38,292 nt of DNA from a virus, in IMG/VR virus record IMGVR_UViG_3300025426_000065, positions 1 to 38,292 of that record; one strand, given 5' to 3'. The notes under the pieces are model-generated. The model did not search any database. It was not told the DNA's origin and saw only the letters and a program-made list of their open reading frames with translations. The stretch's first letter is position 1, and the number at the start of each line of letters is the position of its first letter. Shown piece after piece: positions 1-3,856 of this stretch. A program made the position numbers and the translations under genes.

Positions 1-3000
1 ATACTAATCCTGTGTAATCTAATCCGCCCTCAGGCGGATTTACCAATGTACCTATATATTGTGCCTGTGTGGTTTTAATACCACTATTACTATTATTTGA
101 ACTTGGACTTTTAGGTGCTGATTTCTGTAGTTGTTCCAAAAATGATTTTGTAAATCCACTCACTGATTGACCACCAATACTTGTATTTGTATCGGTTGAT
201 CTTTCATCATACATTTCTGTGTTTGCAAAGAAATTTGATGACAATGCATTTTGTAATCTGTTCACCGGTGTTTCTAATCCTTGTCCGCCAATAAATTTAA
301 TTTGTAATTGGACATTGGCTATCATTGGTTGAACACCAATACCATCAGGATTTAAATCCCAATTATTATCTTCGTATGTTATGTTTAAATTTTCAATCAC
401 CACTTTCGAATGATAAAAATCACCGATTCTTAAAACGCAAATTGGTGGTGGGCCAAATGATGTATTTCTTGCTCCGATATCATTTGCTTCGGGATTTGTA
501 GATATTGGTACAGTATCACCAGGTCTCAAACATTGTTGTAAGAAAGTTAAACGACTGTTTAATCCTTCAGGTGTTGTTGAGTGAAACGCAGGATGAAAAT
601 ATTTTAATTTTTCCTTCAAAGATGTAAAAACAATCGGATCTGTTTCTTCAATCTTTTTGAAGTAATAAGATTCTTGTAATGTTTTTCCAATAATTTTTTT
701 GATTGTATCAATAGAAGGCTTATTAGCTTTTGGTGTTGAAGTGATTTTACGACCCTCAACTATACTTGTTTTTGGTAATGTACCAGGTTGAGTAGTTTGA
801 GAATTATTAGTAGTTTGTTTGATTTGGTCTGTTTCACTATAACTCCAATTAACTGACGCTTTTCTACAGCCATATGCTATAGGAGCGTATATTTTCAAGT
901 TAGTATTGTTAAAAATTCCATTTTTACAATCATAACCATTCAATGTACCATTTTGTCCGTCATTAATTGTTTTGAAAACAATTTTTCCTCCGTCCAAATT
1001 AGGGTAACCCAATTCTTCGAAACTTACAACTAAGTCATCAGCAGTATAAGTAACATCAGTTGATAATGGTGGTTTAGCAGTAATTAAACTATTCCATCTA
1101 TCATCAATACTGAAAGACGTTGCGGCAATTTCATTAATAATTTCACCAATTATTGAATGTGACCTTCTTATAGATAAAGCAAGATTGTAATCGTGTTCGG
1201 CTACTCTTGAAGTTGAGGTTTCAATTGTCATTGTTATTGTTTGACCTTTAACTGCTGCAGTTTGTAAATCAGTTTTTAATTGAGTCAACCCATCCTTGAA
1301 AGTATCAAAAGAACTTTCTGTATCTGTGAAAGCATTTTCTAAATCTGTTTGTTTCAATGAAATATTAGAAGTTAATCCACTAACATAACTTTTAAAATCA
1401 CCATTACCAACTAAAACATTAATATCATTAATGTTCTTATTAGTAGGAGTTGTTGAAATGGATGTCATAGCATCGCTCAAACTATTTTTTGCATTTTGTT
1501 GGAAACTATTGGCTTTTAATGTTGGATAAATGTCCCCATAATATTGGTTCGCAAGATAACCATTGTTATTCTTTTTTGATGGTATATCATTAGGGAAAGT
1601 TAAGAAATCAACTTTAATACTTTGTGTTTTTGTTGAAGGTGTTGGACTTACATTTGGTTGAGGTTGTGTTGTAGGTTGAATAGTTTGTGCTTTGTATTCA
1701 ATGATTGTTTTAGGATCACTTCCATTATTCAAATAATCTAATATTAATTTAATATCAGTATCATTCAAATTCGTGTATGTTCTAACTAAGGTATAGAAAT
1801 CCAAATCTTGACAACCAGCAAAATATGCGTTTATATAGTTGTCAGCTTCTTCGTCTGAACTAAAGTTTTTAAAATATTCTCTTACTAATAAGTTTAATAT
1901 ACTCGGATGATCCACAACTATTTTAAAAGATAAGGTTCCTGTTCTTTCTGTATATTGATAAGTATAAATCGGTTCAGGTCTTCCTACAAATGTATTTTTT
2001 TCCCATTGTGCGCTATTCTGATCGGTAACTTTCAAATCATATGGAGGAAACCACATAACTCTACCACCATTAGGACCTACTTCATCATAAGGTAAATCTT
2101 GTACAGTAAAACCAGGTATGTTAGATGTCTTCCAAGCTAAGTTTTCAATTGAAAACATATATTTTTTTGCATAAAAATCCCCTTTTCCTGGTGTTTTCTC
2201 AAAAATATTAGATGAACTTTGAAAACCTTTATTACCATCTGACATTGGAGCCATATTTAAGTTCCAAGTATTTGACATTACACTTGAATCGTATCTCCTA
2301 ACATTCGTTCTCCTATATGGAGTGGAAGTTGGTATGTATTTTTTTTGTGCAATATCAAATTTATTTGCTGCCAATGGCATTAAATTATCGAATGTATAAT
2401 AAGGTCTATCTTTTGTCCAAGTTCTACAATATTCAACACCCTTTAATTGACCATATTGGTCTGTATATTGAACCGCAGAACCTCTTGCCATAAACTTATC
2501 ACCATCTTGAAATATTCGACTGGTTTGGTCTATAGCATTCGCTACGTGTGCTCTTGCTGAACCACCTGTATTAGGTAATGTATTCAATAAATCTTGTGTT
2601 TGACCAAAAATAGAATTTTCAGGAAATTGATAGTTTGTTGATTCTGTTTGAGTGAAATTAGAAGCTTGTGCATTCCATTCATTATTATTAGCACCTAACT
2701 TATTTAATTTAGTTGAATTAATACTTAACCAAGTTAAATTACCTGCAACTCTACCTCCTTCAGACAAATTAGTATCAATTTGCATCAATCTAGTTTGAAT
2801 AGGGTCAAAAAATAAACTTAAATAATATGGACTTCTAACAGGTCTGTCGTTGAAATCACTCATAGCATAGTTAAGATTATTTCCTCTATCATCACCAATG
2901 TAAGCTGTTGATGGTGGATTTCCTAAACCTATTGCGGTTAATAATGATTTACCTAAATTTCCTGCGATATTCAAACCTCCTGTATTTGTTAGACCCATTG

Positions 3001-3856
3001 CTGTTGATGAATAATCAGGAGCATAAAAATTATATGAAAGATTATCTAATAGATATTGTTTTTGAGTGTCACCCAAATATTGGAAAAATAAATCCGATGG
3101 TTTTTGAGCAATTGCATTTGGGTTTCTCATTCCAAGTAAAGAACTTAAAACACTTGTAGCATCTTGAACGATATTTCCAATTGTTGTTGAAGGTCCGGCA
3201 CCATAAGGATTGTTAGGATCAGTTAAATAAACACCAGGTATTTTTGTTTCAAATGATTTATTACCTTCTAATACTTCTAAAAAATTAACAATATCGGTCT
3301 TAGCATTAGGGTCAACTGTGATTGATTTTTTTAACTTTACTAAAGGTTGTTTTCCACTTATTAAACTTGATGTTATTGACGAATTACTGTTTAACGCATC
3401 ACTTAAAGCACCATAACCATTTGCTGATGCTGCTATATTTTGTGAAACTCTTTGTTGAAAAGGACCTTGTGGATTATTTAAAATATTTGATACTGCAAAT
3501 TTATATAATGCTGATTCGTTTTTATATGAATCAGTTTGTTCAACAATTCCGATTAATGTATGTTCACTAGCTTGGAAGTATGGATATAATTGTAAATTAG
3601 CTGCTCTTGGTAATACTTCTAAATCCTTTTCATAATACTCAGAAGGTTTATACGTATTTATAGATTGACTTTGTTTTAATTCAGCTGCTTGACTGTAAGT
3701 AATAGTACCACCCGAAACATCAGCAGAATCAGATAATGAAGCAAACGCATAGTTGTTACTTGAAAAAGTCTGTGGACCGTTAGGTTGTTGTAATGTTCTA
3801 CCTATCAGAGCTTTTCTAAAATTGTTTGTTGAATCAAAATCTAAGTAACTTGGCAT
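1..3856 (-). CDS. Large baseplate/tail structural protein, C-terminus cut by window edge
   Basis: An open frame starts at ATG 3856 and runs without a stop to the window edge (1285 codons seen). The N-terminus reads MPSYLDFDSTNNFRKALIGR. Residues about 520-620 hold a GGRVMWFPPYDL segment and then a RTGTLSFKIVVDHPS segment, which I associate with large baseplate proteins of T4-like phages. Residues 747-900 look like a split OmpA-type peptidoglycan-binding domain (IKVDFLTFPND near 747, then AEHDYNLALSIRRS near 886). The last gene of the leftward tail cluster, it lies 35 nt after the tape-measure-like gene, and a TATTTATA element sits 13 nt upstream of its start. Probable role: baseplate or hub component contacting the cell wall. 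The family name is uncertain; the structural role is fairly sure from context. Confidence 0.7.
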   Translation of the reverse strand, partial: MPSYLDFDSTNNFRKALIGRTLQQPNGPQTFSSNNYAFASLSDSADVSGGTITYSQAAELKQSQSINTYKPSEYYEKDLEVLPRAANLQLYPYFQASEHTLIGIVEQTDSYKNESALYKFAVSNILNNPQGPFQQRVSQNIAASANGYGALSDALNSNSSITSSLISGKQPLVKLKKSITVDPNAKTDIVNFLEVLEGNKSFETKIPGVYLTDPNNPYGAGPSTTIGNIVQDATSVLSSLLGMRNPNAIAQKPSDLFFQYLGDTQKQYLLDNLSYNFYAPDYSSTAMGLTNTGGLNIAGNLGKSLLTAIGLGNPPSTAYIGDDRGNNLNYAMSDFNDRPVRSPYYLSLFFDPIQTRLMQIDTNLSEGGRVAGNLTWLSINSTKLNKLGANNNEWNAQASNFTQTESTNYQFPENSIFGQTQDLLNTLPNTGGSARAHVANAIDQTSRIFQDGDKFMARGSAVQYTDQYGQLKGVEYCRTWTKDRPYYTFDNLMPLAANKFDIAQKKYIPTSTPYRRTNVRRYDSSVMSNTWNLNMAPMSDGNKGFQSSSNIFEKTPGKGDFYAKKYMFSIENLAWKTSNIPGFTVQDLPYDEVGPNGGRVMWFPPYDLKVTDQNSAQWEKNTFVGRPEPIYTYQYTERTGTLSFKIVVDHPSILNLLVREYFKNFSSDEEADNYINAYFAGCQDLDFYTLVRTYTNLNDTDIKLILDYLNNGSDPKTIIEYKAQTIQPTTQPQPNVSPTPSTKTQSIKVDFLTFPNDIPSKKNNNGYLANQYYGDIYPTLKANSFQQNAKNSLSDAMTSISTTPTNKNINDINVLVGNGDFKSYVSGLTSNISLKQTDLENAFTDTESSFDTFKDGLTQLKTDLQTAAVKGQTITMTIETSTSRVAEHDYNLALSIRRSHSIIGEIINEIAATSFSIDDRWNSLITAKPPLSTDVTYTADDLVVSFEELGYPNLDGGKIVFKTINDGQNGTLNGYDCKNGIFNNTNLKIYAPIAYGCRKASVNWSYSETDQIKQTTNNSQTTQPGTLPKTSIVEGRKITSTPKANKPSIDTIKKIIGKTLQESYYFKKIEETDPIVFTSLKEKLKYFHPAFHSTTPEGLNSRLTFLQQCLRPGDTVPISTNPEANDIGARNTSFGPPPICVLRIGDFYHSKVVIENLNITYEDNNWDLNPDGIGVQPMIANVQLQIKFIGGQGLETPVNRLQNALSSNFFANTEMYDERSTDTNTSIGGQSVSGFTKSFLEQLQKSAPKSPSSNNSNSGIKTTQAQYIGTLVNPPEGGLDYTGLV

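Follow-up and report, generated by a model that had tools for sequence, protein, structure and literature searches.

An OmpA-like domain in a phage baseplate protein

Residues 741‒1010 of P0001, a phage baseplate protein, almost certainly form a true OmpA-like domain, which derives from the cellular OmpA_C family and has grown through insertions. P0001 itself is most probably a tail-tube initiator of the baseplate in a contractile tail, of the T4 gp48/gp54 type. Its gene lies on the minus strand at positions 2‒3856 of the window, the 38,292-base viral record analysed here, and encodes 1285 residues as far as the window edge; the complete protein of 1604 residues was read in a near-identical contig (L001). 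The source phage is uncultivated, comes from water and has a contractile tail. In PHROGs, no family was found for P0001. The present assignment identifies a domain in proteins for which neither PHROG nor Pfam gave a match here.

A preliminary description of the DNA had pointed out two OmpA-like motifs, and both are located where it placed them: IKVDFLTFPND begins at residue 747 and AEHDYNLALSIRRS at residue 886. Family profiles, the predicted fold and less altered relatives agree that these motifs are strand 1 and helix 2 of an OmpA-like domain. The range given at that time, 1150‒1620, holds for strand 1 to helix 2 but not for the whole domain, since strands 3 and 4 lie beyond it and the true span is 827‒1636 (Table 1).

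Sequence relationship to the OmpA family

P0001 or its region alone did not match PF00691 at E-values up to 10, and the search of the window record also gave no match. Searches of Pfam and the PDB with the window sequence alone returned nothing useful, and OmpA was reached via alignments only. Because P0001 alone has no Pfam OmpA or PHROG match, a plain HMM search would have rejected the domain. The alignment A2 holds 61 representatives (<85% identity) of 107 unique proteins spanning the region, and its window row stands for L009. The 107 proteins come from 165 loci in three viral-contig scans, which include the best 80 of 239 and the best 80 of 433 matches, and this best-ranked sample leans toward close relatives.

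PF00691 was matched in 28 of the 61 A2 members (up to E 1; best 1.1e-4), compared with 3 of 61 for the next family, and the NCBI peptidoglycan-binding anchor family NF053612 was matched in 32 (best 1.4e-6). Against PHROGs, the A2 members gave scattered weak matches only. The top PDB match of the A2 profile was the OmpA domain 2mqe (E 0.0023); the top rows also include further OmpA-like chains, interspersed with coiled-coil chains, which align to the helical stretches. In addition, hhalign aligned A2 with E. coli OmpA at E 2.4e-5. The NxxLSxxR motif, which we take to be the OmpA-type helix motif, is almost invariant in A2 (Asn 61/61, Leu 61/61, Arg 60/61).

A search with A3, the conserved flank, found one relative in genome contigs (L168), in whose protein the corresponding position is occupied by a short OmpA-like stretch without the split; neither A3 nor the L168 protein had a significant match or family in PHROGs. 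L168 (QCKH01000012.1, 1‒12549) is a phage tail module on a 51-kb contig that is filed under the single-cell genome Prochlorococcus sp. AG-409-L21 and is also present in IMG/VR. It may represent a phage that infected the cell or was attached to it and that belongs to a type remote from the named phages searched. The L168 domain alone matched PF00691 at E 0.063, and the A2 profile gave no useful alignment with this single domain. With L168 as the query, at least 78 loci were obtained (the best 80 of at least 597 relatives).

Among the best-ranked relatives, 231 reading frames carry both profile anchors that flank the domain, and the regions between the anchors comprise 160 unique stretches. Of these, 130 show a loose OmpA signature, compared with 8.6% of shuffled copies. 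Two sets, A5 (27 rows) and A6 (17 rows), were chosen by eye from the 160, with near-copies and some others left out. The A5 rows show YFPND, GYASxxG, NxxLxxxR and KxxR; 21 of the 27 matched PF00691 (up to E 0.1; best 7.5e-10), and the A5 profile matched 26 PDB sequences at E ≤ 0.01 (best 8.4e-7), all of which we take, from their names, to be of the OmpA/Pal class. The rows of A6, the group of L168, are shorter and partly degenerate, with PF00691 in 5 of 17 (best 2.8e-5). Thus, the HMM check proposed in the preliminary description was negative for the window sequence alone and positive for the homologous family. By hhalign, A5 is linked to E. coli OmpA (E 4.5e-6), to A2 (E 1.5e-5) and to A6 (E 7.8e-17), and the sequences of relatives such as L237, L238, L243 and L245 bridge A5 and the window type.

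Three of the 160 unique relatives in this best-ranked sample (L214, L215 and L217) have only a linker rich in small and acidic residues in the domain slot. Together with the partly degenerate 17-row set, they indicate that the domain is dispensable in some phages. Two others, L233 and L239, with 985 and 524 residues between the anchors, contain OmpA-like motifs plus further unknown parts. In a core tree of 74 representatives of the 160, well-supported branches set apart the window type, the A6 type and the three empty rows, each as a group; six rows assigned the label 'other' contain OmpA-like stretches on visual inspection, with large additional insertions in two. With the root placed between the two large sides, a choice made for drawing, an old origin of the domain and a single loss would follow.

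Predicted fold and insertions

The AlphaFold2 model of the domain, built on A2, has a mean pLDDT of 94.3 and a pTM of 0.92 and shows the OmpA_C fold, as the preliminary description had anticipated. VIA-align, which copes with insertions in the domain, superposed the model on the Acinetobacter OmpA domain 3td3_A with Z 9.4 (117 of 120 residues, 2.5 Å), and its 50 rows are mostly OmpA, Pal, TagL, TssL, YfiB or MotB domains. Foldseek against the PDB also ranked OmpA-like domains first, at E 0.03‒0.2 with none at or below 0.001, and a search of a viral-protein fold library gave no match at E ≤ 0.001.

In model numbering, strand 1 (3‒13) is followed by inserted helices (33‒86), helix 1 (88‒125), strand 2 (133‒140), helix 2 (148‒170), strand 3 (218‒225) and strand 4 (259‒268). 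The suspected splitting of the domain is therefore real in the predicted model, where the helical insertion separates strand 1 from helix 1. Of two smaller insertions, one separates helix 2 from strand 3 and the other strand 3 from strand 4.

That the OmpA resemblance arose by chance or convergence in a coiled-coil spacer is very improbable: although P0001 alone has no Pfam OmpA match, its top match is a weak helical model and Foldseek found nothing in the PDB at E ≤ 0.001, the family profiles, fold, element order and intermediate relatives all agree, and we rejected this reading on the PF00691 matches in A2 and A5, the VIA-align fold match and the PDB matches of the A5 profile.

Table 1 Positions of P0001, its parts and neighbouring tail genes in the window
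Feature	Position	Strand	Basis
P0001, baseplate protein, probable tail-tube initiator; OmpA-like domain inside	2..3856	minus	
Core half 2, residues ~1049‒1207, most conserved part	236..712	minus	mean identity 0.74‒0.96
Linker after domain, residues 1013‒1043	728..820	minus	pLDDT <50
OmpA-like domain, residues 741‒1010	827..1636	minus	AlphaFold2; VIA-align; PF00691 in 28/61 relatives
Strand 4, residues 999‒1008, counterpart of OmpA RRVEI	833..862	minus	model; hhalign
Cys997, second of pair, then invariant Arg	866..868	minus	61/61
Cys977, first of conserved pair before strand 4	926..928	minus	invariant in A2
Strand 3, residues 958‒965	962..985	minus	model
Helix 2 with YNLALSIRR, residues 888‒910	1127..1195	minus	Asn891, Arg898 = PorE Asn584, Arg591 by spacing
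Ser883 at OmpA GHTD Asp position (PorE Asp576)	1208..1210	minus	A2: Ser 58, Thr 2, Ala 1 of 61; A5: Ser 26, Thr 1 of 27
Strand 2, residues 873‒880	1217..1240	minus	model
Helix 1, lengthened, residues 828‒865	1262..1375	minus	model
Helical insertion separating strand 1 from helix 1, residues 758‒827	1376..1585	minus	model helices 33‒41, 43‒59, 66‒76, 81‒86
Strand 1 with LTFPND, residues 743‒757	1586..1630	minus	model; A2: Asn16 59/61, Asp17 51/61
Linker before domain, residues 712‒738, Gln/Thr/Pro-rich	1643..1723	minus	pLDDT <50; mean identity 0.38 in bin 721‒740
Core half 1, residues ~562‒679, long beta hairpin, tube-like fold	1820..2173	minus	model of 550‒1230; VIA-align range 13..642 vs Afp7/Pvc7-type and T4 chains
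Probable tape measure protein, 644 aa	3892..5826	minus	place and length only
Baseplate hub-like protein, 251 aa	5980..6735	minus	phrog_150, E 1.3e-8
Tail tube protein, 162 aa	6839..7327	minus	phrog_4542, E 2.4e-29
Tail sheath protein, 981 aa	8043..10988	minus	phrog_23, E 7.4e-61

The surrounding core and its gene neighbourhood

The model of residues 550‒1230 has a mean pLDDT of 70.5 and a pTM of 0.46; within it, confidence is high for the domain, and the pLDDT is below 50 in both linkers. In VIA-align, this weakly modelled core matched 6rao_G and 6j0n_b (both Z 11.0), P1 (10.1) and T4 5iv5_BE (9.2), and the match spans the domain, with alignment on both its sides. The tool names entries only, and from length and residue numbers we take the matched chains to be Afp7, Pvc7 and gp48. 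The core thus shows a tube-like beta fold (Z 9.2‒11.0, for a model of middling confidence), and for the protein previously called simply a baseplate protein, a tail-tube initiator is the most likely identity. The second core half, searched as a profile, had no significant match among PDB sequences. The mean identity is 0.84‒0.89 at residues 561‒680, 0.31‒0.62 in the domain and 0.74‒0.96 at residues 1041‒1220.

The gene is located within a module of sheath, tube and hub-like genes, as in other tube initiators, and the next gene to its homologue in L001 encodes a 109-residue protein resembling a baseplate wedge subunit (phrog_7145, E 0.00077). The tape measure candidate had no confident PHROG match. 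The Pfam scan of the long downstream genes revealed no wall hydrolase, and the PHROG search of the neighbours in L010 and L016 gave no endolysin-like match; in L168, the part close to the C terminus of a neighbouring protein of 1681 residues (7505‒12547) gave an endolysin-like match (phrog_181, E 6.4e-10). Since tblastn with P0001 and the L016 protein gave no match among named phages, no host can be named.

Several other features were observed in the window. The DNA polymerase (16421‒19318) has its closest named matches, about 24% identical, in Salinibacter phages. A fibre-like protein of 1376 residues (21809‒25939) contains several Thr-Pro-rich stretches between domains, and a 165-residue protein (27258‒27755) consists of tandem repeats of about 39 residues (117-bp period, 2.4 copies). 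Three proteins carry a short ENIxRIKxxM-like motif at one end, which is the C terminus in two of them and the N terminus in the other (27200‒27256, 28550‒28603 and 32028‒32090); the motif could be a shared targeting or processing signal.

The putative peptidoglycan pocket

PorE binds the DAP residue through the sidechains of Asp576, Asn584 and Arg591 (excerpt of PMC7192894), and in Acinetobacter OmpA the GHTD Asp is reported among two residues that anchor OmpA to the wall (excerpt of PMC6572160). By spacing, the three PorE residues fall at Ser883, Asn891 and Arg898 of P0001. The pocket Asn is kept in 61/61 A2 and 26/27 A5 rows, and the Arg in 60/61 A2, 27/27 A5 and 10/17 A6 rows. The GHTD Asp occurs in none of the 105 rows of A2, A5 and A6; in the looser count over all 160 unique stretches, where 130 carry the signature, the residue is Ser in 122 and never Asp. 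Among the 270 columns, the Asn ranks second in conservation, the Arg ninth and the Ser fifteenth, and the Asn, the Leu and both Arg of helix 2 are within the ten most conserved. Judged from these sequence features, peptidoglycan binding by the domain is possible.

A Cys pair before strand 4 in the window domain, also observed in L219 and L237, is probably the counterpart of the Cys pair of E. coli OmpA, and in hhalign the A5 stretch matching this pair falls beside the Cys-containing loop of E. coli OmpA. Some A5 rows have further Cys pairs before strand 2.

Proposed role of the domain

In contractile phages, the step from outer-membrane puncture to DNA entry is poorly known, and a domain of the wall-binding type on the initiator would be a direct candidate for what keeps the tube in place in the periplasm. 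The computed features to be explained are the fold, the homology, the place in the protein, the kept Asn and Arg, and the absent Asp. We propose that the OmpA-like domain is strung on two flexible linkers inside the tube initiator. By analogy, six copies would be arranged in a ring around the lower end of the tube. The domains would lie outside the tube, because the channel must stay open for DNA. Contraction would carry the tube and, with it, the ring of initiators into the periplasm, where the domains would touch peptidoglycan and hold or centre the tube during DNA entry. T4 gp48 and gp54 are located between the hub and the tube (excerpt of PMC3004832) and are said to move with the tube, which enters the periplasm capped (excerpt of PMC7600766). 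If P0001 is a T4-type initiator, its OmpA-like domains would thus arrive where peptidoglycan is. Since the T4 initiators travel with the tube tip, docking before contraction, one of the roles first envisaged, is less likely than periplasmic contact after it.

Taken as a whole, this explanation, with wall contact as the domain's job, is the best we can offer, and we hold it tentatively, with a substantial chance of being correct. The high ranks of the Asn and Arg in an otherwise fast-changing domain count in its favor, and the fast change, the kept pocket and the two linkers suit a contact outside the virion. Against wall contact count the missing Asp in 105 of 105 rows, the linker-only relatives with the partly degenerate A6 set, and the structural LysM module of Mu gp43; it could also be that the retained Asn and Arg only maintain the fold. 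The weak core model also counts against the explanation as a whole.

The main rival to peptidoglycan binding is a domain that has turned structural, filling space among hub, tube and wedge or holding the wedge to the hub, with no ligand outside the virion; we regard this as a serious but doubtful possibility. It fits the absence of the Asp throughout, and the LysM module in the tube initiator gp43 of phage Mu is described as structural, with like modules in Milano, A-1(L) and R2 pyocin (excerpt of PMC11915804). However, the domain changes faster (identity of about 0.3‒0.6 per 20-residue bin) than the tube-like core (mostly 0.75‒0.96), and two low-confidence linkers and absence from 3 of 160 unique relatives would be odd for a packed, load-bearing part. 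The rank of the pocket residues among the most conserved columns of the domain also argues against a purely structural role.

It is unlikely that the domain instead binds another ligand, such as a modified stem peptide, a different polymer of the cell envelope or a host protein in the periplasm. The pocket does look changed and still constrained, with Ser replacing Asp (58/61 in A2, 26/27 in A5) while Asn and Arg stay, and a bacterial OmpA-like domain with GYAS exists in FopA (6u83, in the PDB alignment of the A5 profile). However, no such ligand is known, and the peptidoglycan contact of FopA is itself assumed from its family (excerpt of PMC9342783). The Asp-to-Ser change, the domain-less relatives and the shorter-form relatives offer natural comparisons.

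Comparison with known systems

P0001 shares with the PF00691 proteins OmpA, Pal, PorE, TagL and MotB the order of strands and helices, the NxxLSxxR helix and the Arg before strand 4, and its family shares with E. coli OmpA a Cys pair before strand 4, which hhalign (A5) puts close to that of E. coli OmpA. Unlike these proteins, P0001 has Ser in place of the GHTD Asp and three insertions that extend the domain from about 120 to 270 residues, and its domain is inside a phage tail protein, whereas theirs are in envelope proteins.

The core fold is shared with initiators of the T4 gp48/gp54 and Afp7/Pvc7 type on both sides of the domain (Z 9‒11), and the genes of such initiators, including Mu gp43, are similarly near sheath, tube and hub-like genes. 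In contrast to them, P0001 is much longer (1604 residues) and carries an OmpA-like domain in mid-protein; in phage Mu and some others, the extra initiator module is described, in the excerpt cited above, as LysM.

An OmpA-like domain is also tied to a contractile machine in TagL and other T6SS anchors (excerpt of PMC8253398), and the TagL entries 5m38 and 7bba are among the Foldseek and VIA-align matches of the domain. However, TagL belongs to the envelope of the producing cell and holds the machine from within, whereas the P0001 domain is part of the virion. Some phages, for example Cellulophaga phi14:2 and phi17:2, likewise encode an OmpA-type domain, but in a separate gene whose annotation is OmpA domain or membrane protein, outside the tube initiator. 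Titles and the beginnings of abstracts listed by one open-access library contained no report of an OmpA-like domain inside a phage tube initiator. OmpA-like domains and tube initiators are each known, and what appears new in P0001 is the presence of one inside the other.
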